From assembly GCA_013335535.1 (NCBI GenBank), contig JAAXVL010000001.1, positions 79,764-143,763 on the forward strand: 64,000 bases of DNA, written 5' to 3'. The position numbers were made by a program, and so were the translations under genes. Within the stretch, counting starts at the first letter, position 1. Every line of letters begins with the position of its first letter. A model generated the notes under the pieces. That model saw only the letters and a list, made by a program, of their open reading frames with translations, had not been told where the DNA came from and did no database searches. This document shows, piece by piece, positions 6,619-63,789 of the stretch. The DNA is from Azonexaceae bacterium (GTDB lineage: Bacteria; Pseudomonadota; Gammaproteobacteria; Burkholderiales; Rhodocyclaceae).

Positions 6619-7506
6619 ATGCGGCAAATCCTCCTCGCCCTGCTTTTCTTTGCCGTGCACATGCCCGCCAGTGCCTGGAACGCGGCCGGCCATCGGCTGA
6701 CCGCCGTCATTGCCTGGCAGCAACTGTCGCCGACGACGCAGACGGCGATCAGCGAAGCACTGTCCCGACACCCTGACTATGAACGCTGGATGGAAAGATC
6801 ACGCTCCTCTGCTGGCGTCGATATTTTCGCCGAAGCTTCGACCTGGCCGGACGATATTCGCAACGATCCCCGCTTTTACGACGAGAGTAGAGACCCCGCT
6901 ACGCCAGCCCTGCCCGGACTTCCCGACACGGCGCGTCACAAGCACTGGCACTACGTGGACCTGGACGCTGGCGGCCGGACGAAATCCGGCGAACTGGACG
7001 CCCAAATCGAGCGCCTGAACCGACTTCTACGGTCAACCGGAAAAAAGGCCGAAATTTCAAATACCCTGCCCTGGCTCGCCCACCTCGTCGCCGACATCCA
7101 CCAGCCGCTGCACGTCGGCCACCACGGCGACGGAGGTGGCAACGACGTTGAAATCGAAAATCCGTTCAACAAACGCCTGCCATTCAGCAGCCTGCATGTT
7201 TACTGGGACGATCTGCCCGGCCCGCCCTGGTTGCGCGGCAAGCGCCTGCAACAAAACGCGGAACGCCTGCTCGAAAATCATCCAGCACCAAGGCAGGGCA
7301 ATGTCGCACTGTGGCGCGATGAAAGTCATCGCCTGCTTGCCGAAGCCTATCCGGATGCCAGTGGCAGCCTGCTGCCGATCATCAGCGAGGAGTTCCGCCG
7401 GCACAGTCGGGAAATCGCCGAGCGCCGCATCGTCGAGGCCGGCTACCGACTGGGCGGACTGCTCGAAGCCATTTTCGGCCAGCGCGTTTCACGTGAAACG
7501 CCATAG
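6619..7506 (+). CDS. Secreted S1/P1-type zinc nuclease
   Basis: The ATG at 6619 gives a 295-residue protein starting with a signal peptide (MRQILLALLFFAVHMPASA) and a mature end beginning WNAAGHRL. S1/P1 nucleases use the amino-terminal Trp itself as a zinc ligand, so this fixes both start and cleavage site. Other ligand-bearing motifs are visible: HYVDLD and LPWLAHLVADIHQPLHVGHHGDGGGND. It is expected to degrade single-stranded DNA and RNA in the periplasm or outside the cell, perhaps for nutrient recovery. The reading frame contains one copy of the dispersed element (7027-7062), and its last codons (RVSRET) are a parS-like palindrome. It diverges from rsmB. Confidence 0.92.
   Translation: MRQILLALLFFAVHMPASAWNAAGHRLTAVIAWQQLSPTTQTAISEALSRHPDYERWMERSRSSAGVDIFAEASTWPDDIRNDPRFYDESRDPATPALPGLPDTARHKHWHYVDLDAGGRTKSGELDAQIERLNRLLRSTGKKAEISNTLPWLAHLVADIHQPLHVGHHGDGGGNDVEIENPFNKRLPFSSLHVYWDDLPGPPWLRGKRLQQNAERLLENHPAPRQGNVALWRDESHRLLAEAYPDASGSLLPIISEEFRRHSREIAERRIVEAGYRLGGLLEAIFGQRVSRETP
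7027..7062 (-). repeat. Dispersed T-tract/TCCGGTTGACCGTGG element, copy 1
   Basis: On the minus strand this reads as an A/T-rich lead, TTTCGGCC, a T-run, then TTCCGGTTGACCGTAG; one base differs from the core. It lies in frame inside the S1/P1 nuclease gene, encoding RSTGKKAEISN just before the conserved LPWLAH motif. Confidence 0.75.
7485..7500. promoter_or_regulatory. parS-like site 1 (CGTTTCACGTGAAACG)
   Basis: A perfect 16-bp palindrome that matches the bacterial parS consensus TGTTTCACGTGAAACA at the 14 central bases. It lies in the final codons of the nuclease gene. ParB (Spo0J) is expected to bind it and nucleate the partition complex near the origin. Confidence 0.85.
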
Positions 7507-7515
7507 AATTGTCAT

Positions 7516-7902
7516 ATGAACGGCCTGCACCTCATTGCTGACCTCCACGACTGCCGCTGCCCCCCGGGCTTCTTGCTCGACGCCCCGGCGCTCGAATCAT
7601 TCTGCATCGACGCCTGTCAGCGCCACGGACTGACTGTCGTGGGACGCCTGTTCCATACCTTCCACGATGCTGCCGGCCAGCCGGCCGGCGTCACCGGCAC
7701 CGTCGTCCTCGCCGAATCCCACCTCGCCGTGCACACCTGGCCCGAGATCGCCAGCGTCACGCTGGATGTTTATGTCTGCAACTTCAGCTGCGATAACAGC
7801 TCAAAGGCCAATGCCCTGTTCGACGAAGTCATCGACCGCTTCGCGCCGGAAAGCCGACAGTGCACGCGCGTCGGACGCGGCCGCCTGGCACCGGCAACAT
7901 AG
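7516..7902 (+). CDS. speD: S-adenosylmethionine decarboxylase proenzyme
   Basis: This 128-residue protein has the size of the short bacterial/archaeal AdoMetDC. The self-processing site is clear: the motif LAESHLAVHTWPE holds Glu67-Ser68, where autocleavage turns the Ser into the pyruvoyl cofactor, and the adjacent His is conserved. The Cys of the proton-donor region is probably in NFSCDNSSK. The enzyme makes decarboxylated AdoMet, the aminopropyl donor for spermidine. It starts 9 bp after the nuclease stop and converges on fmt. Confidence 0.95.
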   Translation: MNGLHLIADLHDCRCPPGFLLDAPALESFCIDACQRHGLTVVGRLFHTFHDAAGQPAGVTGTVVLAESHLAVHTWPEIASVTLDVYVCNFSCDNSSKANALFDEVIDRFAPESRQCTRVGRGRLAPAT

Positions 7903-7913
7903 CGGCCAACCCA

Positions 7914-8837
7914 TCAGGCCGGAATATCGAAGCGGTCTCCTGCCTTCAGCGGATGCCCGGCCAGGAACTGCTGCACCGGCAAACGCTTGCCACCGGCCTT
8001 CTGCAATTCGCTGACCGCCAGCGCACCGGCACCACAGGCAACGACAACGCTGTTCCGGTCAACAGACAAAATGGTGCCAATTTCACCCTCTCCGGCCACC
8101 GGGGCCGCCTGCCACAACTTCACCGTCTGGCCGCCAAACACGGCCTGCGCACCGGGGAAGGGATTGAAGGCACGGATATGCCGATCCAGCTCGGCCGCGC
8201 TCTTTGACCAATCGATCAGCGCCTCGGCCTTCTCAATCTTGTGCGCATAAGTTACGCCGTCGGCCGGTTGCGGCTCGACGGGCAAAGGCAGCTTGCCCAG
8301 CGCCTCGACAACTAGTTGGGCGCCAAGCTCGGCCAGTCGGTCATGCAGAGAGGCCGTGGTATCACCGGCTTCGATGGGAAAAGCACCGCGCAACAGTACC
8401 GGCCCGGTATCCAGGCCAGCCTCCATCTGCATGATGCAAACGCCCGTTTCCGCATCACCCGCCAGCAAGGCTCGCTGGATCGGGGCCGCACCACGCCAGC
8501 GCGGCAGCAGCGAGCCGTGGATATTGATGCAACCAAAACGCGGCATGTCGAGGACCACCTGCGGCAGGATCAAGCCATAGGCAGCGACCACCATGACCTC
8601 GGCACCAATCGCCGCGATCTTCGCCTGCGCCTCGGTATCCCTCAAGGTCAGAGGCTGGAAAACTTCGATGCCATGCTCCAACGCCACTTTCTTGACTGCC
8701 GATGGCTGCAAGCTCATGCCACGCCCGGCCGGACGATCCGGCTGAGTCAGCACCAAGGCCACATCGTGCCCGGCAGCAACAATGGCCCGCAAGGCCTGGG
8801 CGGCAAATTCCGGTGTCCCGGCAAAGATCAGCTTCAT
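7914..8837 (-). CDS. fmt: Methionyl-tRNA formyltransferase
   Basis: The ATG at 8837 ([16 protein letters not shown]) gives 307 residues, the usual length; the 38-residue in-frame extension upstream is def sequence read in another frame. The formyltransferase core shows the folate-binding/active-site run [20 protein letters not shown] and the family Asp in [18 protein letters not shown]. It formylates the initiator tRNA using 10-formyl-THF. The start overlaps the def stop as ATGA, so the two are translationally coupled. Confidence 0.97.
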
Positions 8838-9337
8838 GCGGTAACACGCGCCTGTTTGGCCATCTTGTTCTTGATTCGCGTCTGCTTGAGCAGCGAAAGG
8901 TGATCGACGAAAACCGTCCCGTTCAGATGATCGATTTCGTGCTGGATACACACCGCCAGAAGACCCTCCGCCTCCAACGTGTGCTGCTTGCCATCAAGGT
9001 CGAGGTAGGTCACCGACACCCGCTCGGCACGCTCCACCTTGTCGTAAATACCAGGCACCGACAGACAGCCCTCCTCGCCAGTCTGCGACCCCTCGCAGCG
9101 GCCGAGCGTCGGATTGATGAAAACCTGCAGATCACTCTTGTCTTCAGAAACATCGATCACGACGATGCGCTTGTGGACGTCGACCTGAGTCGCCGCCAAA
9201 CCGATTCCCGGTGCCTCGTACATGGTTTCTGCCATGTCGGCGACCAGTTTTCGGGTGCTGTCATCGATCTTGGTAACAAGGGCTGCCACCTTTTTCAGAC
9301 GCGGGTCGGGGAAACGCAAAATGGGTAAGAGGGCCAT
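8834..9337 (-). CDS. def: Peptide deformylase
   Basis: This 167-residue protein contains all three deformylase motifs in order: [17 protein letters not shown] (metal-ligand Cys) and QHEIDHLNG (two ligand His and the catalytic Glu). It removes the N-formyl group added through fmt, with which it is coupled. The 146-bp gap upstream, between it and the divergent LysM gene, should hold promoters for both. Confidence 0.97.
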
Positions 9338-9483
9338 ATGAAAATAGGAATAAAAGCTTGCTCGATTAGGTTATTACGTGCAGAATCTAAAGCAATTCCC
9401 GAGATATGGAACGCAAATTGATCGCCGCTGTATTGAGACTGCGACGACGGTAATGCGTTCCGCCGGCACGTGAGGTTACGACT

Positions 9484-10515
9484 ATGGTTCGCATTATATC
9501 CGCGCTCATCCTGGCCGTGACGGCCGCCTGCGCATCGGCCGCCGAGCCGCTAACGCTCGTCGATAACCCGCCTGACCGACACATCGTCGTCAAGGGCGAC
9601 ACTCTCTGGGGCATTTCGGGCAAATTCCTCAAGCAACCTTGGCGCTGGCCAGAAATCTGGCAAATGAACAAGGAAGAAATCAAGAACCCGCACTGGATCT
9701 ACCCGGGCGACATCATCCTGCTCGATACATCGAGCGGATCGCCGCGCCTGAGAATGGCCAAGCGCGTCACCGGCCAGGACGGCAAGGTCCAGCCGATGGT
9801 TCATAGCACCCCCGGCGAACTGGTGATTCCAAGCATTCCGTCGAACATCATCGAGCCGTTCATTTCCCAGCCGCTGATCGTCGAATCCAACGGAACCAAC
9901 AGTGAAGCAGTAATCGTCGCAGCCCAGGAAGACCGCATGTTGCTCGGAACCGGCGACTCTTTCTACGCCAAAGGGATCCCCGACGGCAGCATCGAAAAAT
10001 GGCAAATTTTCCGTAAAGGCAAGCCGCTCAAGGATCCGAAAACCGGAGAGGTCCTAGCTTATGAAGCCTTCTACCTCGGCAATGCCCGTCTGATCAAACC
10101 AGGCGAGCCAGCTACGCTACGCGTCACGCTGGCCAAAGAAGAAATCGCACGAGGCGATGAACTGATTCCGGCTCAGCCACCGGAAATCATTACCTATGTT
10201 CCGCATCGTCCTGAGCAGGGAATTGAAGCCAGCGTCATGTCGATCTACGGCGGCGTTCAGGAAGGCGGAACAACATCCGTCGTATCTCTGACCCGCGGCA
10301 AGAACGATGGACTTGAAGTCGGCCACGTCGTTGCGCTATTCCGCAATCGCATTTCAACAAATATCGACGATAACGGAGTTCGCTCCGATACGCCTGTTCC
10401 GGAAGAACGCTACGGACTGGCCTTCGTCTTCCGGGTCTTCGACAGGGTTGCCTACGCTCTGGTCGTCAGCTCATCCAAATCCGTCATCATCGGGGATTCG
10501 GCAAGAAATCCGTGA
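9484..10515 (+). CDS. LysM domain exported protein
   Basis: The protein has 343 residues. A signal peptide (MVRIISALILAVTAACASAAEP) precedes one LysM domain (HIVVKGDTLWGISGKFLKQPWRWPEIW to IYPGDIILL, about residues 37-80), which should bind peptidoglycan glycan strands in the periplasm. The remaining 250 residues are a family-specific extension without a recognisable catalytic motif. The gene regularly lies between def and dprA in related bacteria, and its stop overlaps the dprA start as GTGA. Confidence 0.88.
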   Translation: MVRIISALILAVTAACASAAEPLTLVDNPPDRHIVVKGDTLWGISGKFLKQPWRWPEIWQMNKEEIKNPHWIYPGDIILLDTSSGSPRLRMAKRVTGQDGKVQPMVHSTPGELVIPSIPSNIIEPFISQPLIVESNGTNSEAVIVAAQEDRMLLGTGDSFYAKGIPDGSIEKWQIFRKGKPLKDPKTGEVLAYEAFYLGNARLIKPGEPATLRVTLAKEEIARGDELIPAQPPEIITYVPHRPEQGIEASVMSIYGGVQEGGTTSVVSLTRGKNDGLEVGHVVALFRNRISTNIDDNGVRSDTPVPEERYGLAFVFRVFDRVAYALVVSSSKSVIIGDSARNP

Positions 10516-11588
10516 TCATCTCCGAAGGCCTGGCCGCTTGGCTTCGGCTGACGCTTATCCCCGGTATCGGCGGCGAGTCGCAAAGAAAGCTACTCGCCGC
10601 TTTCGGTTTACCCGAGGCTGTTTTCGCGGCCGGACGGCTCGCTGCGCGCAGCGTTGTCGGTGACCGAGCCGACCTGCTCTTTGATTTTGATCCGGCGGCA
10701 GAGATTGACCGCAGCATTGAGTGGGCCAGTCAGCCAGGACAGCACATCCTGACTCTCGCCGACGAGACCTACCCGAAGGCCCTGCTCGAAATCGCCGACC
10801 CGCCCAGCCTGCTCTACGTTCGCGGCAATTCAGCGTTGCTCCAGAAACGCGGGCTGGCCATGGTCGGTAGCCGCAATGCAACGCCACAAGGTCTGCAAAC
10901 AGCCGAAAACTTTGCCCGGACGCTGGCGGCAAAAGGCCTTTGCATCGTCAGCGGCCTAGCCCTGGGGATCGATGCAGCTGCTCACCGCGGCGCGCTATCA
11001 GCCGGTGGTGACACAATTGCCGTCATCGGCACCGGCGCCGATCGCATCTACCCGGCTCGCAACAAGGAACTGGCCTTGGCCATCGTCGAACACGGTGCGG
11101 TGATTTCCGAATTTCCCCTCGGCACACCGGCCATTGCTGCCAACTTTCCACGCCGCAACCGTATCATTTCAGGCCTCTCACGTGGGGTGCTGGTCGTCGA
11201 AGCGGCCCCCGAAAGCGGCTCGCTGATCACTGCACGCCTTGCCGGCGAACAAGGACGGGAAGTTTTCGCCATCCCCGGTTCCATTCACTCGCCGGTAGCT
11301 CGCGGTTGTCACAAATTGATCAAGCAAGGCGCCAAGCTGGTCGAAACTGCCAACGATGTTCTGGAGGAGCTGGGTAACTTCACCTCTCCTGAAGAACCGG
11401 CGGAAAGCGCGCCGACAGAAGACGAACACCCGGTACTCGCCGCCCTTGGGCATGATCCGTGCAGTCTGGATGACCTGCTCGAACATACCGGACAAAGCGC
11501 TGAACAATTGCTGCCAGAACTCCTGATGCTCGAACTCTCGGGCAAAATCGCCCCCCTGCCCGGCAACCGCTACCAGCGCCTGAGCTAG
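10512..11588 (+). CDS. dprA: DNA-processing protein DprA
   Basis: This 358-residue protein starts at GTG 10512, overlapping the LysM gene stop. An N-terminal SAM-like/HhH region (LTLIPGIGGESQRKLLAAFG) is followed by the extended Rossmann fold with AMVGSRNATPQG and SGLALGIDAAAHRGAL, and a C-terminal winged-helix domain (VLAALGHDPCSLDDLLEHTG). DprA binds incoming single-stranded DNA and loads RecA during natural transformation. Its presence makes competence conceivable, though dprA is widespread in bacteria not known to be competent. Confidence 0.96.
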   Translation: MIISEGLAAWLRLTLIPGIGGESQRKLLAAFGLPEAVFAAGRLAARSVVGDRADLLFDFDPAAEIDRSIEWASQPGQHILTLADETYPKALLEIADPPSLLYVRGNSALLQKRGLAMVGSRNATPQGLQTAENFARTLAAKGLCIVSGLALGIDAAAHRGALSAGGDTIAVIGTGADRIYPARNKELALAIVEHGAVISEFPLGTPAIAANFPRRNRIISGLSRGVLVVEAAPESGSLITARLAGEQGREVFAIPGSIHSPVARGCHKLIKQGAKLVETANDVLEELGNFTSPEEPAESAPTEDEHPVLAALGHDPCSLDDLLEHTGQSAEQLLPELLMLELSGKIAPLPGNRYQRLS

Positions 11589-11664
11589 GCCCCCCATATA
11601 TAGAGACGGCTTGCCAAGCCGCGCACCGGGCACTTATCATGCCCCGGACTCCACAGGCCCCAAC

Positions 11665-17481: not shown

Positions 17482-17520
17482 TTGCCACGGTCAACCGGAA
17501 AAATCAGCTAAAAATGAAAT
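17482..17520 (-). repeat. Dispersed T-tract/TCCGGTTGACCGTGG element, copy 2
   Basis: Intergenic copy with a full core on the minus strand: TTTCATTTTTAGCTGA, T-run, TTCCGGTTGACCGTGGCAAC. It lies between the SRPBCC terminator and the end of the ABC-F gene. Confidence 0.85.
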
Positions 17521-20595: not shown

Positions 20596-21615
20596 GTGGC
20601 TCAGCAACTGCATTTCGAGAAACACCTGCTCGGCGGCAGCGCCAGGTCGCTGAAGATCGCCTTCATCGTCGATCCCCTAGAGCACCTGAAGGCCTGGAAG
20701 GACTCGTCGGTGGCCATGATGCGCGCCGCCGAAAACCACGGTCACGATGTTTACGCCATCGACGCTGCAACGCTCGGCTGGCGCAAGCCGGAGACCGCCC
20801 ATGCCGGGGGCGTGGTCGGCGAGGCGACGCACCTGCTGCTGCGCCCGGACGACCACGACTGGTACCGTGAAACCGGCCGCGAATGGATGGCGCTGACCGC
20901 TTTCGACGCGGTGATCATGCGCAAGGATCCGCCTTTCGATTTCGAATACCTGACGGCGACCTGGCTGCTCGAACGGGCCGAAGCGGATGGGGTCAAGGTT
21001 TTCAACCGGCCACGGGCCCTGCGCGATCATTCGGAAAAGCTGGCGCTCATGGAGTTCGCCCACTTTGCGCCGACCACCGCGATCAGCCGCGACATGGCGC
21101 AAATTCATCATTTCATCGACGAAGAGCGCGACGTCATCCTCAAGCCCCTCGACGGCATGGGCGGCAGCCAGATTTTCCGCGTCCATCGCAACGACCCGAA
21201 CCGCAACGTCATCGTCGAAACGCTGACCCACGACGGTGCACGGACGATCATGGCGCAGCGCTACCTGCCCGAGATCAGCCACGGCGACAAACGCATCCTG
21301 ATCATCGCCGGCAAGCCGGTGCCCTTTTGCCTGGCACGCATCCCCAAGGCCGGCGAAACACGCGGCAACCTCGCCGTCGGCGGCACTGGCGTCGCCCAGG
21401 AACTCTCGGCCCGCGACCGGGAAATTGCCGAAGCCCTCGGCCCCATTCTCTTCAAGCGCGGGCTCATGCTGATCGGCATCGACGTCATCGGCGACCGACT
21501 CACCGAAATCAACGTCACCAGCCCGACCTGCATGGTCGAAATCCGCCAGCAGTCAGGGTTCGATGCGGCCGGCGCTTTCATTACCGCCATCGAACACGCA
21601 TGCGGGATTTCCTGA
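20596..21615 (+). CDS. gshB: Glutathione synthetase
   Basis: Starting at GTG 20596 the protein has 339 residues. The family's usual N-terminus (KIAFIVDPLEHLKAWKDSS) appears 20 residues in, so the true start may be slightly later. ATP-grasp motifs are visible: MRKDPPFDFEYL, VILKPLDGMGGSQIFR and the metal-binding GIDVIGDRLTEINVTSPTCM. It joins glycine to gamma-glutamylcysteine. Its 3' end overlaps apbE by 16 bp. Confidence 0.96.
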   Translation: MAQQLHFEKHLLGGSARSLKIAFIVDPLEHLKAWKDSSVAMMRAAENHGHDVYAIDAATLGWRKPETAHAGGVVGEATHLLLRPDDHDWYRETGREWMALTAFDAVIMRKDPPFDFEYLTATWLLERAEADGVKVFNRPRALRDHSEKLALMEFAHFAPTTAISRDMAQIHHFIDEERDVILKPLDGMGGSQIFRVHRNDPNRNVIVETLTHDGARTIMAQRYLPEISHGDKRILIIAGKPVPFCLARIPKAGETRGNLAVGGTGVAQELSARDREIAEALGPILFKRGLMLIGIDVIGDRLTEINVTSPTCMVEIRQQSGFDAAGAFITAIEHACGIS

Positions 21616-22640
21616 AACTTTTCCTGACGGCGATCTGCGCCCTGCTCCTCGCCGCCTGCGGACGCACGCCGCTGCAGGAACAACAGGCCTACGTCTTCGG
21701 CACCCGCGTCGAAGTGCTCGTCGTCAGCGAAGACCCTGAACAAGGACGCAAAGCCATCGCCGCCGTGCTGCGCGAGTTCGACCGCCTGCATCGCGCCTAT
21801 CATGCCTGGCAGGACTCCGAACTGACGGCTTTGAATTCGGCCATTTTTTCCGGTCGACCGTGGAAAGTCAGCCCGGAACTCGCCAACTTCGTTCAGGAGG
21901 CCCAGGCGCTGGCCAAACAGGGCGACTACCTGTTCGACCCCGGCATCGGCCAGCTGATCAAACTGTGGGGTTTCCAGGCCGACGAGTTCAAGGCCGAATT
22001 GCCGCCCGCTAACGACATCAAGGCCTGGCTGGCCAGCAAGCCGTCGATTGCCGACATTGCCATCGATGGCCAGACGATCAGCAGCCGCAACCGCCATGTC
22101 GCCCTCGACTTCGGCGGCTATCTCAAAGGCGTTGCGCTCGACCGCGCCGCCGTCATCCTGCGCGCCCAGGGCATCAATAACGCGCTGATCAACATCGGCG
22201 GCAACGTCATGGCGCTCGGCAGCAAGCAAGGCAAGCCCTGGCGCGTCGGCATCCAGCACCCGCGCCAGCCCGGGCCGCTGGCTACCGTGACGCTGGCCGA
22301 CGGCGAAGCAATTGGCACCTCGGGCGACTACCAGCGTTTCTTCGAGGTCGGCAACCAGCGCTACGCCCACCTGCTCGATCCCCGCACCGGCTACCCGGCC
22401 GACCACACCCAGGCCGTCACCGTCCTCATTCCCGCCGGGTCACGCGCCGGCACCTTGTCCGACGCCACCTCCAAGCCGATCTTCATCGCCGGCCCAGAAA
22501 GCTGGCGCGACATGGCGCGCAAGATGGAAATCGGCCTCGTTCTGCGCGTCGACCGCGACAACCGGATTTTCGTCACCGAAGCCCTGCGCCAGCGCCTCGA
22601 ATTCATCGGCCAGGCGCCTGAAATCACCGTCGTTCCCTGA
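21600..22640 (+). CDS. apbE: FAD:protein FMN transferase ApbE (lipoprotein)
   Basis: From ATG 21600 the protein has 346 residues. It begins with a lipoprotein signal (RDFLKLFLTAICALLLAAC, lipid-attachment Cys in LLAAC). ApbE landmarks follow: YVFGTRVEV, FDPGIGQLIKLWGF, ALDFGGYLKGVALDRA, NIGGNVMALG, GTSGDYQRFFEV and HLLDPRTGYPADH, which includes the flavin and magnesium-binding residues. ApbE attaches FMN covalently to Thr in partner proteins such as the Nqr/Rnf subunits. The long open extension upstream of ATG is a gshB shadow. A dispersed-element copy falls in the codons for AIFSGRPWKV. Confidence 0.94.
   Translation: MRDFLKLFLTAICALLLAACGRTPLQEQQAYVFGTRVEVLVVSEDPEQGRKAIAAVLREFDRLHRAYHAWQDSELTALNSAIFSGRPWKVSPELANFVQEAQALAKQGDYLFDPGIGQLIKLWGFQADEFKAELPPANDIKAWLASKPSIADIAIDGQTISSRNRHVALDFGGYLKGVALDRAAVILRAQGINNALINIGGNVMALGSKQGKPWRVGIQHPRQPGPLATVTLADGEAIGTSGDYQRFFEVGNQRYAHLLDPRTGYPADHTQAVTVLIPAGSRAGTLSDATSKPIFIAGPESWRDMARKMEIGLVLRVDRDNRIFVTEALRQRLEFIGQAPEITVVP
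21831..21868 (+). repeat. Dispersed element, copy 3 (in apbE)
   Basis: GAATTCGGCC, a T-run and TTCCGGTCGACCGTGG, a one-base core variant (GTCGACC). It encodes part of the apbE segment before the conserved VSPEL and appears to add no insertion relative to the usual family pattern. Confidence 0.78.
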
Positions 22641-28249: not shown

Positions 28250-28293
28250 ATTTCAAAATTCAGCCTTTTTCCCGGTTGACCGTGGAAGTTGCC
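28250..28293 (+). repeat. Dispersed element, copy 4
   Basis: Starts 10 bp after the HD-GYP stop: TTTCAAAATTCAGCC, T-run, CCCGGTTGACCGTGGAAG. It fills most of the gap before the sirtuin start. Confidence 0.85.
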
Positions 28294-29144: not shown

Positions 29145-29597
29145 CTACTCCGGCGCCTTCGAGTCGATACTCAGCGTCACCGGTCCGTCGTTGATCAGGC
29201 TGACTTCCATGTCCGCCCCGAAAACCCCGGTCGGCACTGGCTTGCCCAGTTCAGCCGACAACCTGGCGACAAACTGCTCGAACAGCGGCTGTGACACATC
29301 GCCGCGTGCCGCCCGGCTCCACGACGGCCGATTCCCTTTTTTCACCGAGGCATAAAGCGTGAATTGCGAGACGGCAAGAATCGCCCCGCCAGCCTCGACG
29401 ACACTGCGGTTCATCGCCCCGTTCTCGTCGCCAAACAACCGCAGGCGAACGATCTTGCCGGCCATCCAGTCGAGGTCAGCCTCGGCGTCTGACTCTTCAA
29501 ACCCGGCCAGGACGAGCAAGCCGGATTCTATTTTTCCGCAAATTTTCCGGTTGACCGTGACACTCGCTTCCTTGACCCGCTGAACGACTACCCGCAT
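29145..29597 (-). CDS. dtd: D-aminoacyl-tRNA deacylase
   Basis: From ATG 29597 ([15 protein letters not shown]) this is a 150-residue protein of standard DTD length. The hallmark motifs are present: [17 protein letters not shown] and the Gly-cisPro region in [24 protein letters not shown]. It hydrolyses D-amino acids from mischarged tRNA. It converges on the sirtuin gene. One dispersed-element copy overlaps its 5' codons ([13 protein letters not shown]), where the family normally has a variable but length-conserved strand. Confidence 0.96.
29525..29563 (+). repeat. Dispersed element, copy 5 (in dtd)
   Basis: ATTCTATTTTTCCGCAAA, then TTTTCCGGTTGACCGTGAC, carrying a full GGTTGACCGTG core on the plus strand and antisense to dtd. 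There is no gap or insertion in the encoded protein relative to the usual DTD pattern. Confidence 0.75.
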
Positions 29598-29653
29598 ACC
29601 GAATTCCTTGTCAAAATGAACCAAACACCCGAATAACCACCGCTAAAGCTGCA

Positions 29654-29967: not shown

Positions 29968-32480
<2,513 letters not shown>

Positions 32481-42589: not shown

Positions 42590-43228
42590 ATGAAGGAACA
42601 TTTCATTTTTGGCCGTTTTTTCCGGTTGACCGTGGCAACCTGCGTCGTTGTGGTGCTGGGTGCCTGCAAGGGAAACGAAACGAAGCCCGAAGACGGTAGT
42701 CCGACGGCCGAGGTGAAAAAGGATAATGCGGTGCGTACCGGCTACGCCTGCTGCAACCTGCATTACTCGGGCGACTGGATCAGCGATTCGAATCTGGCCC
42801 AATTGCCGTTCATACCGGCTGGCACGCCGATCAGGGTTTTGAAGATCGACGGTTATCGCGCCAATATCGAAGTCGAAGGCAAGCCGTATCGCCTCGGCCA
42901 CGATTTCGGCCGGGCCGAGGAAACGACCGAGCAGTGGGTCAGCAAGATGGTGGTGCTCGATGATCCGAAAGTGAAGATGGCGAAATTTTCGCCGGCTGTG
43001 CGCAATGCGATCGCCAAGGGTCAGCTCATGAAAGGCATGACCAAAGAGCAGGTCATCATGGCGGTCGGCCACCCGCAGACCAATGAAAATCCGCGCCTGG
43101 ACGGTCCCTACTGGCGCTACTGGTGGTCGAGCTTCGGCCCCTATTACGTGTATTGGGCCAAGGGAAGCGTCAGCAAGATCGACGGCCATTCCGAAACAGT
43201 GGGCTACATGACCTACAAAGGCAAATAA
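42590..43228 (+). CDS. Lipoprotein, BamE/SmpA-like C-terminal part
   Basis: From ATG 42590 the protein has 212 residues. It has a lipoprotein signal ending VVVVLGAC. The mature part has a CC pair (YACCNLHYSGDWIS), an SH3-like section (AGTPIRVLKIDGYRANIEVEGKPYR), and a C-terminal KGMTKEQVIMAVGHPQTNENP segment resembling BamE/SmpA-type outer-membrane lipoproteins. The n-region of the signal peptide is encoded by a dispersed-element copy. It sits 36 bp upstream of the halogenase gene. The function is unknown; localisation to the outer-membrane inner leaflet is inferred. Confidence 0.78.
   Translation: MKEHFIFGRFFRLTVATCVVVVLGACKGNETKPEDGSPTAEVKKDNAVRTGYACCNLHYSGDWISDSNLAQLPFIPAGTPIRVLKIDGYRANIEVEGKPYRLGHDFGRAEETTEQWVSKMVVLDDPKVKMAKFSPAVRNAIAKGQLMKGMTKEQVIMAVGHPQTNENPRLDGPYWRYWWSSFGPYYVYWAKGSVSKIDGHSETVGYMTYKGK
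42601..42640 (+). repeat. Dispersed element, copy 7 (best-preserved; encodes signal peptide start)
   Basis: TTTCATTTTTGGCCG, a seven-base T-run, CCGGTTGACCGTGGCAACC. T-tract centres are about 11 bp apart. It begins four codons after the lipoprotein ATG and encodes FIFGRFFRLTVAT. Confidence 0.9.
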
Positions 43229-45603: not shown

Positions 45604-46451
45604 TGGCCATGTCGAAAAAGTTGAGCAAGGGCGCGCTGGCCGCGCTGAGTCTGGTCGCCATGGCGAACGGTGTGCAGGCTGCCGGCGACCAGCCGCTGTG
45701 GGAGGTCGGGGCCGGCCTGGCCGCCTTCAGCTTTCCGTCCTATCGCGGCTCGGACCAGACCCACAACTTCCTGATGCCGGTGCCGCATTTCACCTACCAC
45801 GGTGATTTTTTCAAGGCTGACCGCCAGGGTATTCGTGGCAGTTTCTTCGACTCCGACCGACTCGACCTTACCGTCAGCCTGGCGCTTGCTCCACCTGTGA
45901 GCAGCGACGACATCACGGCGCGTGCCGGCATGCCTGACCTCAAGGGCACATTCGAAATCGGGCCGCAGATGGACGTCACCTTCTGGCGTTCGGAAAACCG
46001 GGCCCGCTTCGTCAAGCTGCTCCTGCCCCTGCGTACCGCCATCACCGTCGAAGGTTCGCCGAAGAGTATCGGCTGGGTCTTCCATCCCAAGCTCAACATG
46101 GACATCACCGACATTCCCGGCATGGGCGGCTGGAATCTCGGCATGCTGGCCGGCCCGCTGTTCGGCGACAAGCGCCAGCACGCCTACTACTACACCGTCG
46201 CCCCGCAGTACGCGACGGCCGTTCGTCCGGCATATGAAGCCGATGCGGGCTATGCCGGCATGCAGTATCTCGTCGCACTGTCCAAGCGCTTCCCTAAATA
46301 CTGGGTCGGCGGCTTCGTGCGTTACGACAACCTGAGCGGCGCCACCTTCGAGAACAGCCCGCTGGTTCGCCAGAAGGATTACTTCGCCGCTGGCGTCGCC
46401 TTCACCTGGGTATTCGGAGAGTCGTCGACCCGCGTCAAGGTCGATGACTGA
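45603..46451 (+). CDS. MipA/OmpV-family outer membrane protein
   Basis: This 282-residue protein has a signal peptide (KGALAALSLVAMANGVQA). It begins its mature part with the family pattern PLWEVGAGLAAFSFPSYRGSDQTHNFLMPVPHFTYHG and ends with alternating aromatic strands (YFAAGVAFTWVFGESS). It probably forms a small outer-membrane barrel. The start overlaps the chorismatase stop (TGATG). In this operon it may anchor or pass the pigment or its lipid; other MipA proteins are scaffolds or porins. Confidence 0.87.
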   Translation: MAMSKKLSKGALAALSLVAMANGVQAAGDQPLWEVGAGLAAFSFPSYRGSDQTHNFLMPVPHFTYHGDFFKADRQGIRGSFFDSDRLDLTVSLALAPPVSSDDITARAGMPDLKGTFEIGPQMDVTFWRSENRARFVKLLLPLRTAITVEGSPKSIGWVFHPKLNMDITDIPGMGGWNLGMLAGPLFGDKRQHAYYYTVAPQYATAVRPAYEADAGYAGMQYLVALSKRFPKYWVGGFVRYDNLSGATFENSPLVRQKDYFAAGVAFTWVFGESSTRVKVDD

Positions 46452-47226
46452 ACGTTCGCGCGCAGGCAATCCCTTGTGGATGGCCTACGAGTACTTTGCC
46501 ATGGTTGTCGGTCTGGGCTCGCTGGCCGTGCTTTGTCTGATCTGGCTGCCCTGCGCGCTGATCCTGAATTTCCTGCTGCCCAGGCGCCTTGGCCAAATGG
46601 TCGGCCGGGTCGTCATTTCTTGGGGGTTCCGGCTTTATCTGAACATTTTGACTGTTTTCTGCGCCTGTCGTTTCGACCTGACCGAGATCGATCGTCTGCG
46701 TGACCAGGGACCGCTCATCCTCGCCGCTAACCACCCTTCCCTGCTCGATGCGGTGATGATCGTCTCCCGGCTGCCCAACGCTGTCTGCGTCATGAAGGCG
46801 GCGCTCATGGACAACCTGCTGTTCGGCGCTGCTGCCCGGTTGGCTCGCTACATCCGCAACGACGCGGCGCTCGACATGATTCTCGGGGCCCGCGACGAAT
46901 TGCAGCAAGGCGCCCATCTGGTCATTTTTCCCGAAGGCTCGCGCACGCTCGAGTTTCCCTTCGATGCCAGTTCGCCGAGCGTCGGCCTGATCGCCAGTCG
47001 CAGCAAGGTCGATATCCAGACGCTGCTCATCGAATTTTCCACCCCGTATCTCGGCAAGACCTGGCCGCTTTTCCGCCGCCCCGAACTGCCGCTGACTTGC
47101 CGGATCCGCCTCGGTCGCCGCTTTCCGCCGCCAACCAATATCCAGGCCTTTACGTCCGAGCTCGACGCCTATTTTCATTTCGAATTTGGCCAAAATTTCC
47201 GGTCGACCGTGGCATTCGCCGCCTGA
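46444..47226 (+). CDS. Lysophospholipid-type acyltransferase (PlsC-like)
   Basis: This 260-residue protein has an N-terminal membrane anchor (FAMVVGLGSLAVLCLIWLPCALILNFLL). The acyltransferase motifs are NHPSLLD (the HX4D form) and IFPEGSR. It overlaps the porin gene by 8 bp. Aryl-polyene clusters carry such acyltransferases, believed to attach the polyene to a glycerolipid or sugar head group. The last codons (FGQNFRSTVAFAA) are a dispersed-element copy. Confidence 0.87.
   Translation: MTERSRAGNPLWMAYEYFAMVVGLGSLAVLCLIWLPCALILNFLLPRRLGQMVGRVVISWGFRLYLNILTVFCACRFDLTEIDRLRDQGPLILAANHPSLLDAVMIVSRLPNAVCVMKAALMDNLLFGAAARLARYIRNDAALDMILGARDELQQGAHLVIFPEGSRTLEFPFDASSPSVGLIASRSKVDIQTLLIEFSTPYLGKTWPLFRRPELPLTCRIRLGRRFPPPTNIQAFTSELDAYFHFEFGQNFRSTVAFAA
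47173..47216 (+). repeat. Dispersed element, copy 8 (acyltransferase 3' end)
   Basis: TTTCATTTCGAATTTGGCC, AAAATTTCCGGTCGACCGTGGCA: both T-tracts and the core with one change (GTCGACC). It supplies the C-terminal codons of the acyltransferase. Confidence 0.83.
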
Positions 47227-52989: not shown

Positions 52990-53027
52990 ATTTCCATTTT
53001 GGCCATTATTTCCGGTTGACCGTGCAA
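52990..53027 (+). repeat. Dispersed element, copy 9
   Basis: TTTCCATTTTGGCC, ATTATTTCCGGTTGACCGTG, CAA. Intergenic, starting in the gap upstream of fabG and ending within a few bases of the dehydratase stop. Confidence 0.87.
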
Positions 53028-53030
53028 TGT

Positions 53031-55449: not shown

Positions 55450-55641
55450 GGTGGCGCTCGAGAAGGGATGGGCCTGATTTTAGCAGAGGGTAAGGCAGCC
55501 GACGGCGGCGAATCGTATGCGCTGGACGGCCCGGCGAATGGTTAAACTGGCTGCATCGCCGACGGTGCGAATTGAACACCTAAACCCGCTTTTCCGATGC
55601 CAGGCATTCCCGGTATTGGGCGAGCTTTCCGGGGGGCAACG

Positions 55642-56433
55642 ATGAATAAGACGATCAAGATTGCGCTGGCCTGCATGTGCTGGCTTTTGGCCTTGCCCCT
55701 GCGGGCCGAGGTCGAGCCCCGGGTGGTCGATATCCCGACGCGACCGGGCGTCACGCAACGTCTGCTGGTGCTGGCGCCTGCGGCGCCGAAGGCGGCAGTG
55801 ATCCTGTTTGCCGGCGGTCACGGTGGCCTGCAGATTGCGCCGGATGGCGCATTCGGCTGGGGCAAGGGCAATTTCCTGGTGCGCAGCCGGCAGCTGTTTG
55901 TCGATCAGGGCTTGCTGACGGTGGTGATCGATGCGCCGTCGGATCGACAGTCGCCGCCCTACCTCGCGGGATACCGGCAGGGGCCGGAGCACGCGGCCGA
56001 TGTGCAGGCGGTGATCGCCTGGGTTCGCCAGCAGTCGGGATTGCCGGTGTGGCTGGTCGGGACGAGCCGGGGGACGCAGTCGATTGCTGCGGTGGCGACG
56101 CGCCTGAGCAAGGCCGATGGGCCGGATGGCCTGGTGCTGACGTCGACCATCCTGAGCGACCCGAAAGCGCCGTCGGTGCCGGCCATGGCGCTCGACAGGC
56201 TGGGCATCCCGGTGATCGTCGCGCATCACGAACTCGATGGCTGCAGTCATTGCGCCTACGGCGACATACCGAACCTGATGCAGAAGCTGGAGAACTCGCC
56301 GCGCAAACAGTTACTTTCCTTCCGCACCGGCATCAGCCGGGGCGATCCCTGCGAGGCGATGGCCTATCACGGCTTCAACGGCATCGAATCGGAGGTGGTC
56401 GGGCAGATCGCCGGCTGGGTCTTGGCGCGCTGA
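55642..56433 (+). CDS. Exported alpha/beta-hydrolase-like protein
   Basis: From ATG 55642 (MNKTIKIALACMCWLLALPLRA) the protein has 263 residues with a signal peptide. An alpha/beta-hydrolase core shows VILFAGGHGGLQI (oxyanion region) and a nucleophile elbow WLVGTSRGTQS, with a possible catalytic His in VAHHELDGC or MAYHGF. Two Cys pairs (CSHC, and DPC) may form disulfides. The substrate is unknown. It is oriented opposite to the surrounding biosynthetic genes and ends at a dispersed element. Confidence 0.8.
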   Translation: MNKTIKIALACMCWLLALPLRAEVEPRVVDIPTRPGVTQRLLVLAPAAPKAAVILFAGGHGGLQIAPDGAFGWGKGNFLVRSRQLFVDQGLLTVVIDAPSDRQSPPYLAGYRQGPEHAADVQAVIAWVRQQSGLPVWLVGTSRGTQSIAAVATRLSKADGPDGLVLTSTILSDPKAPSVPAMALDRLGIPVIVAHHELDGCSHCAYGDIPNLMQKLENSPRKQLLSFRTGISRGDPCEAMAYHGFNGIESEVVGQIAGWVLAR

Positions 56434-56439: not shown

Positions 56440-56480
56440 ATTTCAATTTTGGGCAATTTTTCCGGTTGACCGTGGCAAGT
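56440..56480 (+). repeat. Dispersed element, copy 10
   Basis: ATTTCAATTTTGGGC, AATTTTTCCGGTTGACCGTG, GCAAG. It begins within 7 bp of the hydrolase stop codon and lies upstream of the dicarboxylate carrier gene. Confidence 0.9.
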
Positions 56481-56615
56481 TCCGCCTGGGCTGATGCAGG
56501 TCAACTGCCGTGCAGATTTACCTTGCCGGCGACCTCTTATCGCCGATCCCGATGTGGCATAGTGAGCTGAAATTGCTGCGTTGCAGCATATAAGGTTTTG
56601 CTTAAGGGGATCATC

Positions 56616-57941
56616 ATGTTCGATTTCTGGATTCAGTTTGCGCTGGTTCTGACCGCTATCCTGATCGGTATCCGGCGCGGTGGTGTGGCGCTTGGGCTGA
56701 TCGGCGGGCTCGGCGTTGCCGTGCTCAGTTTCGGCTTTCGCGTGGCACCGCAGGAGCCGCCGATTACCGTGATGTTGATCATCCTCGCCGTGGTCACCGC
56801 CTCGGCGACGCTGCAGGTAGCGGGCGGCCTCGACTGGCTGGTCCAGCTGGCCGAGCGCCTGATGCGCAAGCATCCGCAGCAAATCACTTTCCTCGCGCCG
56901 CTGTCCACCTTCCTGCTCACGGTTTGCGTCGGCACCGGCCACGCCGTTTATTCGCTGCTGCCGGTCATCGCCGACGTCGCGCTGAAGACCAAAATCCGCC
57001 CGGAACGGCCGATGGCCATTTCCAGCGTCGCCTCGCAGATGGGCATCACGGCCAGCCCGGTAGCGGCGGCTGTGACGACCTTTCTGGCGATGACGGCGAA
57101 GACCGATGCGCCGGTGACGCTGGCCCAGATTCTCATGGTGACCTTGCCGGCCGGCCTGATCGGCGTGCTGGCGGCGGCCTTCTGGAGCATGAATCGGGGC
57201 CTCGATCTGGACAAGGACCCGGAATATCAGGCGCGCCTGCAGGATCCCGATTTCCGCGCCTCGGTCGAAAAATCGGTGACCACGCTCGACAAGGAACTGC
57301 CCAAGTCGGCCCGCCTGTCGGTCGTGCTGTTCTTCACCGGCATCCTGACCATTGTCGCCCTCGCCCTCTACCCGAGCGTGCTGCCGCTGGCCAAGGGCAA
57401 GCCGATCCCGATGACGACGGTCGTCCAGCTCGTCATGCTCGCCTTCGGCGCCTTCATTTTGTTCGCGGCCGATGTCAAGGCGTCGGCCATCGCCAAGTCG
57501 GAGGTATTCACGGCCGGCATGATCGCCGTCGTCTCGATCTTCGGGATCGCCTGGATGAGCGACACCTTCGTCAAGGCCAACGAGGCTTTCCTGGTGGAAA
57601 ACATCAAGGCCATGGTCGAGTACGCACCGTGGACCTTCGCGCTGGCCATGTTCGCCGTCTCGGCATTTGTGAAGAGCCAGGCGGCGACGCTGACCATCAT
57701 GCTGCCCTTCGGCCTGGCGCTGGGCCTCAGCCCGCAACTGCTGCTCGGCCTCATGCCGTCCTGCTACGCCTACTTCTTCTTCGCCTTCTACCCGAGCGAT
57801 CTGGCGGCAATCAACATGGACCGCAGCGGCACGACGCGCATCGGCAAATACCTGCTCAACCACAGCTTCATGATTCCCGGCTGGATCGGCGTCATCACCT
57901 CGACCATCGTCGCCTACGGGCTGGCGCAGCTTTATTTCTGA
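56616..57941 (+). CDS. Anaerobic C4-dicarboxylate carrier (DcuA/DcuB family)
   Basis: From ATG 56616 (RBS AAGGGGA) the protein has 441 residues with about ten hydrophobic segments. Family features are ALVLTAILIGIRRGGVALGLIGGLGVAV, MLIILAVVTASATLQVAGGLDWLVQLAE, GTGHAVYSLLPVIADVA and ITASPVAAAVTTFLAM. Dcu carriers exchange fumarate, aspartate or malate for succinate during anaerobic growth. It has no evident link with the pigment genes that surround it and is flanked by element copies 10 and 11. Confidence 0.94.
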   Translation: MFDFWIQFALVLTAILIGIRRGGVALGLIGGLGVAVLSFGFRVAPQEPPITVMLIILAVVTASATLQVAGGLDWLVQLAERLMRKHPQQITFLAPLSTFLLTVCVGTGHAVYSLLPVIADVALKTKIRPERPMAISSVASQMGITASPVAAAVTTFLAMTAKTDAPVTLAQILMVTLPAGLIGVLAAAFWSMNRGLDLDKDPEYQARLQDPDFRASVEKSVTTLDKELPKSARLSVVLFFTGILTIVALALYPSVLPLAKGKPIPMTTVVQLVMLAFGAFILFAADVKASAIAKSEVFTAGMIAVVSIFGIAWMSDTFVKANEAFLVENIKAMVEYAPWTFALAMFAVSAFVKSQAATLTIMLPFGLALGLSPQLLLGLMPSCYAYFFFAFYPSDLAAINMDRSGTTRIGKYLLNHSFMIPGWIGVITSTIVAYGLAQLYF

Positions 57942-57980
57942 TTTGGATTTTGGCCGGAATTTCCGGTTGACCGTGGCAGC
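57941..57980 (+). repeat. Dispersed element, copy 11
   Basis: ATTTGGATTTTGGCC, GGAATTTCCGGTTGACCGTG, GCAG. It starts at the last base of the Dcu stop codon and fills the gap before the convergent DUF1615 gene. Confidence 0.9.
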
Positions 57981-57995
57981 CGGTCGGAGCCGCGC

Positions 57996-59180: not shown

Positions 59181-59184
59181 CGAA

Positions 59185-60728: not shown

Positions 60729-60729
60729 G

Positions 60730-61374: not shown

Positions 61375-61379
61375 GCGGC

Positions 61380-61395
61380 GGTTTCACGTGAAACG
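61380..61395. promoter_or_regulatory. parS-like site 5 (GGTTTCACGTGAAACG)
   Basis: Complete 14-bp core, intergenic between the alpha/beta-hydrolase start and the MMPL stop, 5 bp from dispersed element 12. Confidence 0.86.
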
Positions 61396-61399
61396 TGGG

Positions 61400-61439
61400 A
61401 TTTCATTTTTGGCTGAAATTTCCGGTTGACCGTGGGAAT
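61400..61439 (+). repeat. Dispersed element, copy 12
   Basis: ATTTCATTTTTGGCT, GAAATTTCCGGTTGACCGTG, GGAA. Intergenic, directly beside parS-like site 5. Confidence 0.88.
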
Positions 61440-61455
61440 GGCTGCAAACAGGGTT

Positions 61456-63789
61456 TCAGTCACCTTGGCGCTCCGAAAAACAGGCCGAGAGCAGCAGCGC
61501 CAGCACGGCGCCCGGGCCGACGGTGATGCCGACGGCGTGCAGCACGGGCACGCTGGACAGGGCGAGGGTGCCGAAGCCGATGGCGGTGGTCAGGTTGGCG
61601 ATCGCCATCGAGGCCAGCGTCGGCGGATCGAGCCGGTGTTCATCGCCGGCCCGGTCGAAGAACAGCGCGTAATTGGAGCCGACGGCGACGATCAGCAACA
61701 TGCCGATCAGATGCATGAGATGCAGTTGTTCGCCCGACAGGTGCACGCCGGCGATGATCAGAATGACGGCGAGGAGCAGCGGCAGCAGCACGGCGCCAAG
61801 CCGGCGGGCCGAGCGCAACGTGACGGCGAGCAGCGCGACAATGGCGGCGAAACCGGCCAGCGAAAGCAGCGTCGCTTCGTCGAGGTAATCGTTGTAGAGG
61901 CGGTCGAATTCGGACTTCATGTCGATGAGCAGCGCATCGCTGCCAGCCAGTGCTGTCCGCACGGGTTGAATCCTGATTTCTGCATTCTTGTCGCCAGCCG
62001 GCGGGCGCAGCGGCAGCAGCACGCTCCAGCTATCCGGCCGTTGCATGAGCAGCGAATCGACGGCCAGCGCCAGGCCGGTGCCGTTGAGCGATTCGCGCGT
62101 GATGCCGCCCTGCTCTTTCGCCTTGGCAACTTCATCGAGAAAAGCGCCGAGCTTGTTGGCGGCGAGAGGCGAATCGGCTTGCGCCAATTGCAGGCGTGCC
62201 GCCAGTTCGTCGCCGGCCGGCAGGCTGGCCCGGCGGGCGGCCTGCATGGCCTGGCTGGGCAGAAAGCGGGCCGGGCTATCGTAACCGCCGATAACGCCCT
62301 GGACGACCAGTGTGTCGAGCTGCTGCCCGACCCGTTCGGCTGCCTGCAGCGCGGCTTCGCGGTCGGGCGCGGTGATGACGGCCATGTAGCGTGAATCCGG
62401 GGCGCCGATGTCGGCGCGCAGCGCCATGTCGATTGCGCCGTCTTCGGCGCTCACGGTGCTCAGGGCCGACAGGTTCGGGTGCCAGAGCTGGTGGCGGTCG
62501 ATGACGAGGACCGTGGTCGCGGCGATGGTGAGCAGAATGACCGGCCAGCGCAGGTGCTGCAGGGTCCGGATGCCCTCCTTGAGCGGCGCCGCGAGATGGC
62601 TCAGGTCGCGGACCGGGTGATCGTTGCCGGCCAGCGCCGGCAGGATGAAGCGGGTGACCAGCGCGGCGGTCAGCACGCCGCTCAGCGAATAGAGGCCGAG
62701 CTGGGCGAGGCCGGGGAAGCCGGAAAAGAGCAGCGCGGCGAAGCCGCAAATGGAGGTCAGTACGCCGAGACGGATGGTCGGCCAGAAGCGCGCCCGCCAT
62801 TCGGCCGCGCCGAGCCTCCCGGACTGGACGAAATAATAGATCGAGTAATCGACGGCCTCGCCGATCAGCGCCGACCCGAAGCCGACGGTGATGCCGAAGA
62901 CCGTGCCGTAGGCCAGGCTGACGGCGACAATGCCGGCCAGTGCGCCGCTGGCCACGGGCAGCAGGCCGAGGGTGAGCAGGCGGGCCGAGCGATAGACGAA
63001 GAAGAGCACGGCGATGATGGCCAGCGTGCTGATCGTGGACAGTTTGCTGACTTCGCTCTTGATCGTTTCGCGCGATTTGACGGCGAAGAGACCGGGGCCG
63101 GAAATCACGATCCGGGCGTCGCTGAACCCGGTTTCACGGGTGCTGTCGGCAAACTGGCTGCGGATGGTGGCAATGGCCTGTTCCTGGGCATCGGTATCGG
63201 AGCCGAGGGCGGCGCTCTGGATCAGCAGCATGGCGCGCTCGCCGTCGCGCGAGGCCCAGACGCCTTCGCGTACGTTGGGCTGGGCGCCGGCGTTGAGGGC
63301 GGAAAGCAGCTCGATCATTTCGCCGGTCGGGTCGCGGGGCAGCAAGGGCTTGATCATCATGCCGGCCGGCGAGGCGAGCAGGTCGACGCTGTTGGCGATG
63401 CTGGCACGCAGGCCGTCGACACTGAAACGTTCAGGCTTGACGGCCGGGCTGAGCAGGTAGCGGTGGCGGAACAGGAAGTCGCGGTCGGCATCGAGGCTGC
63501 CGGCCTGGCCGTTCTGGACGCTGACGAATTCGGGCAATTTTTCCAGTCGACCGTGCAACTGGCGCGAAACCACAGCCCGCTGGGCGGCGTCGCCGCCTTC
63601 GATGGCGACCATGAGCAGGCGCGTGACGACGCCCTCCTTCAACTGGTCGACCAGTACCTGCTGCGCCGCGCTCGGCCGACCCGGCAGGAAGAAGGACATG
63701 TCGGCCGAAAAGTGGCTGTTCCAGACGACCACCGCCCCGGCCAGCATGGCCAGCAGCCAGATCAGGAAGGCCCGGGCTGCCGCGCTCAT
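61456..63789 (-). CDS. MMPL/RND-type exporter, aryl-polyene (ApeM-like)
   Basis: This 777-residue protein has an N-terminal helix (RAFLIWLLAMLAGAVVVW), a large periplasmic loop, five clustered helices, a second loop and a final helix group, i.e. the two-fold MMPL layout with about 12 helices. Typical segments are AIIAVLFFVYRSARLLTLGLLPVASGALAGI and VGFGSALIGEAVDYSIYYF in the first half and LLIVAVGSNYALFFDRAG in the second. It should move the lipid-linked pigment across the inner membrane by proton motive force. The start overlaps the LolA-like stop (ATGA). Confidence 0.9.
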   Translation of the reverse strand: MSAAARAFLIWLLAMLAGAVVVWNSHFSADMSFFLPGRPSAAQQVLVDQLKEGVVTRLLMVAIEGGDAAQRAVVSRQLHGRLEKLPEFVSVQNGQAGSLDADRDFLFRHRYLLSPAVKPERFSVDGLRASIANSVDLLASPAGMMIKPLLPRDPTGEMIELLSALNAGAQPNVREGVWASRDGERAMLLIQSAALGSDTDAQEQAIATIRSQFADSTRETGFSDARIVISGPGLFAVKSRETIKSEVSKLSTISTLAIIAVLFFVYRSARLLTLGLLPVASGALAGIVAVSLAYGTVFGITVGFGSALIGEAVDYSIYYFVQSGRLGAAEWRARFWPTIRLGVLTSICGFAALLFSGFPGLAQLGLYSLSGVLTAALVTRFILPALAGNDHPVRDLSHLAAPLKEGIRTLQHLRWPVILLTIAATTVLVIDRHQLWHPNLSALSTVSAEDGAIDMALRADIGAPDSRYMAVITAPDREAALQAAERVGQQLDTLVVQGVIGGYDSPARFLPSQAMQAARRASLPAGDELAARLQLAQADSPLAANKLGAFLDEVAKAKEQGGITRESLNGTGLALAVDSLLMQRPDSWSVLLPLRPPAGDKNAEIRIQPVRTALAGSDALLIDMKSEFDRLYNDYLDEATLLSLAGFAAIVALLAVTLRSARRLGAVLLPLLLAVILIIAGVHLSGEQLHLMHLIGMLLIVAVGSNYALFFDRAGDEHRLDPPTLASMAIANLTTAIGFGTLALSSVPVLHAVGITVGPGAVLALLLSACFSERQGD
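63525..63562 (+). repeat. Dispersed element, copy 13 (in MMPL gene, diverged)
   Basis: GAATTCGGGCAATTTTTCCAGTCGACCGTG in two parts: A/T lead, then TTCCAGTCGACCGTGCAA with two core changes. It encodes LHGRLEKLPEF on the opposite strand. Confidence 0.6.

Follow-up and report, generated by a model that had tools for sequence, protein, structure and literature searches.

To our knowledge, self-recognition tags for DNA uptake have so far been reported from only two bacterial families. Passages of PMC12616744 give the Pasteurellaceae USS as a 9-nt core, with GCGG as its inner core, and two AT-rich regions, spanning up to 32 nt, and the DUS as a contiguous sequence of up to ~13 nt with a CTG core; inverted pairs are said there to be frequent among both. 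Excerpts of PMC3630211 describe dialects of the Neisseriaceae DUS that share a constant inner core, and ~1900 DUS 10-mers per meningococcal genome. The element presented here is best read as a candidate family of DNA-uptake signals that differs from both DUS and USS and belongs to a third bacterial family; judged from its sequence and distribution, it probably serves as an uptake signal in natural transformation.

The ~40-mer consensus, ATTTCAATTTTGGCCNWTTTTTCCGGTTGACCGTGGCAA, carries 51 bits, and its conservation ends sharply at both edges, rather than running on well beyond 40 bp as an earlier note on this DNA would have expected of a mobile element. On one side of the core lie two A/T-rich tracts at helical spacing, centred at ~-13.5 and ~-3; the note had likewise described two T-tracts about one helical turn apart. 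Across the whole genome (4.2 Mb), the core occurs 718 times at <=2 mismatches, whereas the reversed pattern occurs 13 times; the copies are dispersed on both strands (350/368) at a density of one per ~6 kb, and are not confined to a cluster in the 64-kb window (the whole stretch of DNA analysed). Within the window, TCCGGTTGACCGTGG gives 16 matches at <=3 mismatches (100 shuffles: mean 2.4, largest 6), and all 13 copies reported in the earlier note are among them, displaced by no more than 4 bp. By a 39-position weight matrix, trained partly on copies that it later scored, 11 of the 13 reach 45-67 bits and two are weak, at 24.3 and 28.7 bits; the best score over 20 shuffled windows was 1.9 bits, and the true matrix found 137 matches, the reversed one none.

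The architecture resembles that of the USS (Hin AAGTGCGGT, Apl ACAAGCGGT), which likewise combines a core and, to one side of it, two A/T-rich tracts, and which also comes in many dispersed copies and in dialects. The core is, however, unrelated (GACCG, with no GCGG on either strand of the consensus), the element is longer (~40 bp) and its host is betaproteobacterial. As in the ComP-read DUS of the Neisseriaceae, dialects are arranged round a constant inner core, and a ComP_DUS-family pilin is present; but the element is a discontinuous ~40-mer that lacks CTG on either strand, whereas DUS are contiguous, and its ComP-like pilin does not track dialect. Copies are also fewer than the meningococcal 10-mers counted in the PMC3630211 excerpts (718 in 4.2 Mb at <=2 mismatches versus ~1900), and inverted pairs, which PMC12616744 describes as frequent in both DUS and USS, are rare (2 close pairs in 137 copies).

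In congeners, the element occurs as dialects in which the layout of the A/T tracts is unchanged around GACCG, the second tract being strong in some lineages only. By two generic patterns, in which palindromic cores may be counted on both strands, 43 of the 76 genus genomes hold at least 100 matches, and 25 of the 76 hold fewer than 30 by the one-tract pattern, searched within the genus, and give no sign of dialect B; outside the genus, each of the 373 family members sampled has 0-4 matches to the two-tract pattern. The dialects cluster on a gyrB tree (22 of the 76 genomes; 8 of its 19 inner branches unresolved), on which the motif-less genome G169 falls inside the dialect A group. Moreover, at the shared sites seen, every genome carries its own dialect. 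Copies are spaced more evenly than random placement would give (CV 0.65 versus 0.91; 0 of 1000 simulations as low), with 6 of 99 gaps shorter than 1 kb against 19.5 expected, and they show no replication-strand polarity (58 leading and 67 lagging in 40 stretches of the closed genome G161). The dialects, the even spacing and the lack of polarity, together with absence of the motif from one genomic island (see below), add to the support for the uptake-signal interpretation first offered in the earlier note.

Some of these properties would also befit the binding site of a cytoplasmic DNA protein (a nucleoid organiser, a chromosome-handling protein or a global regulator) that needs the core together with A/T tracts: some cores are near-palindromic (CGGTYGACCG), several copies in G147 and G153 being full palindromes, the A/T tracts suit nucleoid proteins and the copies are evenly spread. 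We nevertheless consider such a site unlikely. The 51 bits carried by the motif far exceed the ~13.5 bits that would suffice to locate 718 sites, strand polarity is absent in the G161 sample and GGCCGACCG, the core of dialect B, does not form a palindrome. Additionally, it would be odd for a housekeeping site to shift its core between congeners, and for 25 of 76 genomes to fall below 30 one-tract matches with no sign of dialect B.

By our own reading of the ORFs, rather than by annotation, six of the window copies are intergenic and seven genic, in agreement with the earlier note. Intergenic copies lie at 17482..17520 (- strand, 61.2 bits), 28250..28288 (+, 49.3 bits; 10 bp past an HD-domain response regulator gene), 56440..56478 (+, 67.1 bits; 7 bp past the end of ORF 55597-56433) and 57941..57979 (+, 56.1 bits; beginning on the terminal base of a DcuA/DcuB-family gene's stop codon), and probably at 52990..53028 (+, 56.7 bits; overlapped only by short or unsupported ORFs) and 61400..61438 (+, 60.8 bits; adjoined by a TTTCACGTGAAA site at 61382). 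The genic copies are found within an S1/P1 nuclease gene (Pfam; ORF 6565-7506 +) at 7024..7062 (-, 56.0 bits), an ApbE family gene (ORF 20883-22640 +) at 21828..21866 (+, 45.6 bits) and dtd (D-Tyr-tRNA deacylase; ORF 29145-29624 -) at 29525..29563 (+, 47.1 bits), in the N-terminal part of a gene for a predicted lipoprotein (ATG 42593; signal peptide by eye) at 42600..42638 (+, 65.7 bits) and in the 3'-terminal part of a gene encoding an acyltransferase (46444-47226 +) at 47177..47215 (+, 56.3 bits). The two weak copies are those in gyrB (31955..31993, -, 24.3 bits), which is probably not working, and in an MMPL transporter gene (63521..63559, +, 28.7 bits; three core mismatches).

Among the 137 copies, rough ORF picks place 61 between genes, although non-coding bases make up 14% by the same picks, and 76 inside ORFs, in both orientations; convergent gene pairs flank 23 copies and divergent pairs 4, counts that are uncorrected for the frequency of such gaps. 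The T-run, the excess of convergent over divergent pairs and the few inverted pairs (L020 and L024, and the 2 found in the 137 copies) could be taken to indicate an element at gene ends that acts as a transcription terminator or as RNA. This is very improbable, given the number of copies inside ORFs in either orientation, the stem of only 4 bp that a single copy forms by eye and a search of the window against Rfam, which gave no match at gathering scores.

The origin of the copies can be followed in stretches of ten other genomes, where 24 of 134 copies have a spanning alignment; 35 of the 51 spanning alignments are gap-free and 16 are gapped. The copies in the ApbE family gene and in dtd align without gaps to orthologues that lack the motif and were therefore not inserted; on these alignments, both in-gene copies were made by point substitution. 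Of the two genes that the earlier note named for copies with no apparent insertion, dtd is borne out; gyrB we rejected as an example, for its copy is weak and mostly accounted for by conserved GVPVDR codons, present also in motif-less genomes. At the intergenic site 17482, the orthologous position in G175 and in G189 carries the dialect of the respective genome, and G169 is without most of the element, with 28-32 alignment positions gapped there relative to this copy and its G161 counterpart; taken with the 16 gapped alignments, this suggests that insertion or deletion at intergenic sites is possible.

REP and MITE repeats are short and dispersed, and many are intergenic. The element is likewise short, repeated, dispersed and biased towards intergenic positions, and the gaps in G169 and in 16 of the 51 alignments would suit a small repeat, mobile or REP/MITE-like, that has spread through transposition. 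It is, however, scarcely credible as such: as the earlier note had argued against a transposed MITE, transposition is contradicted for the in-gene copies tested by the gap-free ApbE and dtd alignments, and 35 of the 51 alignments are free of gaps, spacing is over-even, dialects at shared sites differ in situ and no strong hairpin is visible by eye. A Chi-kind recombination hotspot signal is just as hard to credit, for although one copy per ~6 kb resembles the density of Chi in E. coli, the Chi-like word GCTGGTGG, used as a positive control, is polar (52:16) in the same G161 stretches in which the element is not (58:67), counts on which we also rejected the KOPS/Chi-like polar signal first suspected from one contig, whose copies had, by an artefact, seemed to lie all on the plus strand. 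Nor does a 40-bp element with A/T tracts resemble Chi.

If the element is an uptake signal, a surface or pilus receptor would bind the GACCG-containing core of double-stranded DNA, and bending or opening of the duplex, as it is drawn inwards by type IV pili, may be made possible by the A/T tracts, of which there are one or two, spaced by roughly a turn of the helix. Fragments bearing the motif would be taken up preferentially and then recombined via the ComEC/DprA route, and recombination with such fragments could spread point changes by which copies arise or are restored. Under such a molecular drive, copies would accumulate by substitution, also in genes, and shifts in receptor specificity would give rise to dialects.

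Genes for such a route are present: a ComEC-family gene, pilins and, as the earlier note had pointed out, dprA in the window itself (10512..11588, +; PF02481, 1.7e-79, and DprA_WH). A ComEC-family match occurs in 71 of the 76 genus genomes, yet 10 of 14 controls have one as well. In the window's own strain, comEC is split by a 33.7-kb island, and this one island holds no copy of the motif against ~6 expected; in the motif-less G169, comEC is frameshifted. We rejected comEC loss as a general cause of motif absence, since most motif-less genomes also carry a ComEC-family match. A ComP_DUS-family pilin is found in 70 of the 76 genus genomes and in none of the 14 controls, its best match sitting in a minor-pilin operon that is variable between congeners. 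Its type varies among dialect A genomes, and it is found in motif-less genomes too; as the type of pilin does not follow the dialect, the ComP-like pilin is not supported as the receptor. The pilins compared from seven genomes, which are incomplete sets, include none that is specific to carriers, and the literature matches listed hold no report of natural transformation in Azonexus/Dechloromonas, though they do include one paper that concerns comEC together with Tn7-like elements.

It seems likely that this Rhodocyclaceae genus has a third, independently evolved self-DNA code for transformation, with GACCG dialects, that has converged on the Pasteurellaceae arrangement of a core and helically phased A/T tracts. 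Dialects in a third lineage would demonstrate that the uptake-sequence solution has evolved again, and would provide a fresh system for probing the reasons for uptake sequences and for the recurrence of A/T tracts. The genus includes close relatives of which some carry the motif and others lack it and, as the second tract is strong in some lineages only, gains or losses of that tract could be traced. On the same reading, the insertion of mobile elements in comEC would switch the trait off.

A plasmid search with a 61-base copy as query returned no match. The exact 19-mer is present in two viral-contig stretches, and each stretch examined contains two motif-like matches.

All 13 dispersed copies described for the window in the earlier note are present, each no more than 4 bp from where it had been placed; they are among 16 matches to the 15-bp core at up to three mismatches, against 2.4 expected. 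A weight matrix was built from 128 copies having at most one core mismatch, drawn from the window, 30 loci of its own genome (G000) and 40 stretches of the closed congener genome G161. The resulting consensus, ATTTCAATTTTGGCCNWTTTTTCCGGTTGACCGTGGCAA, runs from position −21 to about +18; of the 51.3 bits in its 39 positions, the core contributes ~25 and the tract side ~24. A and T are partly interchangeable within the tracts. The motif is sharply bounded: beyond these edges, conservation falls close to background, and the extended identity of a mobile element, raised earlier as a possibility, is not seen. By matrix score, 11 window copies reach 45–67 bits, and the weak ones are those in gyrB (24.3 bits) and at 63521 (28.7 bits). 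The gyrB copy proves a poor example of an in-gene element, as it is weak and sits on GVPVDR codons that are conserved in genomes both with and without the motif. The window also contains four TTTCACGTGAAA sites, at 7487, 15303, 44633 and 61382, a sequence resembling parS; the last directly precedes the motif copy at 61400.

The suggested genome-wide count bears out the abundance of the motif: at up to two mismatches, G000 (4.25 Mb in 72 contigs) contains 718 core copies, 350 and 368 on the two strands, against 13 matches to the reversed core pattern. Across 864 kb (the window plus 40 G161 stretches of 20 kb), a cutoff of 25 bits yields 137 copies with the matrix and zero with its reversed version. 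Rough ORF calls place 76 of the 137 within genes, where the coding fraction of 0.856 would predict 117, and the other 61 between genes; in raw counts, unscaled to the frequency of each gap type, the 58 intergenic copies with both neighbours called comprise 23 convergent, 4 divergent and 31 co-directed. The genic copies seldom use one of the reading frames (7 of 76). The spacing is over-even, with a CV of 0.65 versus 0.91 (sd 0.09) for random placement (0 of 1000 simulations as low). Relative to replication, the G161 copies face both ways about equally (58 leading, 67 lagging), whereas other words in the same stretches are biased: GCTGGTGG at 52:16 and GAGCAGG at 313:185. The latter bias, in stretches L031–L070, is towards the leading strand; the top-ranking words of several congeners, whether or not these carry the motif, include GAGCAGG-type ones, which may be a Chi- or KOPS-like signal in this genus. 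Additionally, two viral-contig stretches (L132 and L133) contain the motif's 19-mer exactly and have two motif-like matches each; they are possibly prophage ends with host DNA.

The proposal that the copies were not transposed holds best within genes. The ApbE (21828) and dtd (29525) orthologues of motif-free genomes are equal in length and differ in their letters at the place of the motif, with no insertion. Alignments drawn on stretches of ten other genomes span 24 of 134 copies, 35 alignments being gap-free and 16 gapped; the copies at 42600, 47177 and 63521 are gap-free against G193. The gapped set includes the copy in the S1/P1 nuclease gene (7024), where a diverged G193 sequence has 13 extra bases, and a number of intergenic sites, among them 17482 and its counterpart in G161, where 28–32 alignment positions are gapped in G169. 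The in-gene evidence thus favours substitution over insertion, whereas indels may have occurred at intergenic sites.

Within the genus (76 genomes, including G000), a generic pattern requiring both A/T tracts finds 106–497 matches in 17 genomes (reversed control, 0 or 1). A one-tract pattern, in which palindromic cores may count twice, finds at least 100 in 40 genomes (the highest count being 941; control, no more than 15); G189, G197 and G215 add 195–273 two-tract matches, giving 43 of 76. The remainder have 31–96 (eight genomes) or fewer than 30 (25 genomes) one-tract matches. Outside the genus, the two-tract pattern gives only 0–4 matches in each of 373 sampled family members, as does the core of dialect A, the G000/G161 type, at up to one mismatch in each of 146 genomes. 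Among named records, nine MAGs carry the full motif, at 61 loci in all; their labels are Azonexus, Dechloromonas, Rhodocyclaceae, or just Beta-, Gamma- or Proteobacteria.

A prior-free word count over 80–100 kb per genome returned as top words CACGGTCAACCGG in G161, CGACCGTAGCATT in G189 (20 in 100 kb), GTCGACCGCAGC in G175, and GTCGACCGC- or GACCGTG-type words in G160, G153 and G147; in G169, G112, G173, G193 and G165, the same count found no motif-type top words, and other kinds lead. When aligned, the dialects (that of G189 being GCCGACCG) have in common GACCG and one or more A/T tracts. Profiles centred on GTYGACCG have A/T peaks near −13 and, more weakly in some, −3 in G000, G161, G147, G153, G160 and G175; no such pair is seen in G173 and G169 or, less clearly, G165. 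Moreover, the orthologous sites compared carry each genome's own dialect: 17482 in G000 versus G175 and G189, and L032:9553 in G161 versus G189. A 22-genome gyrB tree, with 8 of its 19 inner branches unresolved, groups the 10 carriers of dialect A together, the motif-free G169 falling inside the group; dialect A requires 2 changes versus 7.4 when shuffled (0 of 500 as low).

At 51 bits against the 13.5 needed, the motif is over-informative; like in-gene substitution, dialects that change in place and over-even spacing, this matches molecular drive by biased uptake better than a binding site for a cytoplasmic protein. In the sequence-level features tested, the motif fits the general kind of uptake sequences, although by motif it is neither the DUS of Neisseriaceae nor the USS of Pasteurellaceae, the only families known for such motifs according to a 2025 paper (PMC12616744). 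Among the matches listed in the open-access literature, nothing relevant concerned uptake sequences in Rhodocyclales, Dechloromonas, Azonexus or other families, or the motif 12-mer.

Of the competence genes, dprA lies within the window, as noted earlier. Of the 76 genus genomes, 71 have a ComEC-family match, as do 10 of 14 controls, and comEC is split in G000; a ComP_DUS-family pilin is found in 70 of 76 versus 0 of 14. In G000, G195 and G169, this pilin is the first gene of a minor-pilin operon near ileS, adjoined by ispH in G000 and G195, with gene names assigned by eye. Its candidacy as the motif receptor is not supported, since its type varies between genomes sharing dialect A and fails to follow dialect. 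The operon is highly variable between congeners (L224–L232, L241–L243, L331 and L332), and pilE and fimT types differ even between same-dialect relatives.

In G000, residues 1–255 of ComEC and the remainder are separated by a 33.7-kb island of low G+C content, 51.5% (contig C33, 109600–143310; L350/L351), with a recombinase-like ORF, judged by eye, at its left end and CTATTAAAACGT shared by its ends as an inverted repeat. This one island has no motif copies, against 5.7–6.3 expected (P 0.002–0.003). Given the split, the strain is probably no longer transformable at present; the still-intact motif copies suggest that the interruption is recent. Homology to comEC also ends near codon 255 in G202 and G157, and near codon 240 in G193, G197, G158, G219 and G220, with the N-terminal part 23–49 kb away in G202, G193, G158 and G220; the repeats flanking the congeners' breaks (L276, L277 and L279–L283) differ. 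From these sequences, comEC looks like a repeated insertion target. In G169, the motif-free genome inside the dialect A group, comEC reads in two frames, a frameshift (L275).
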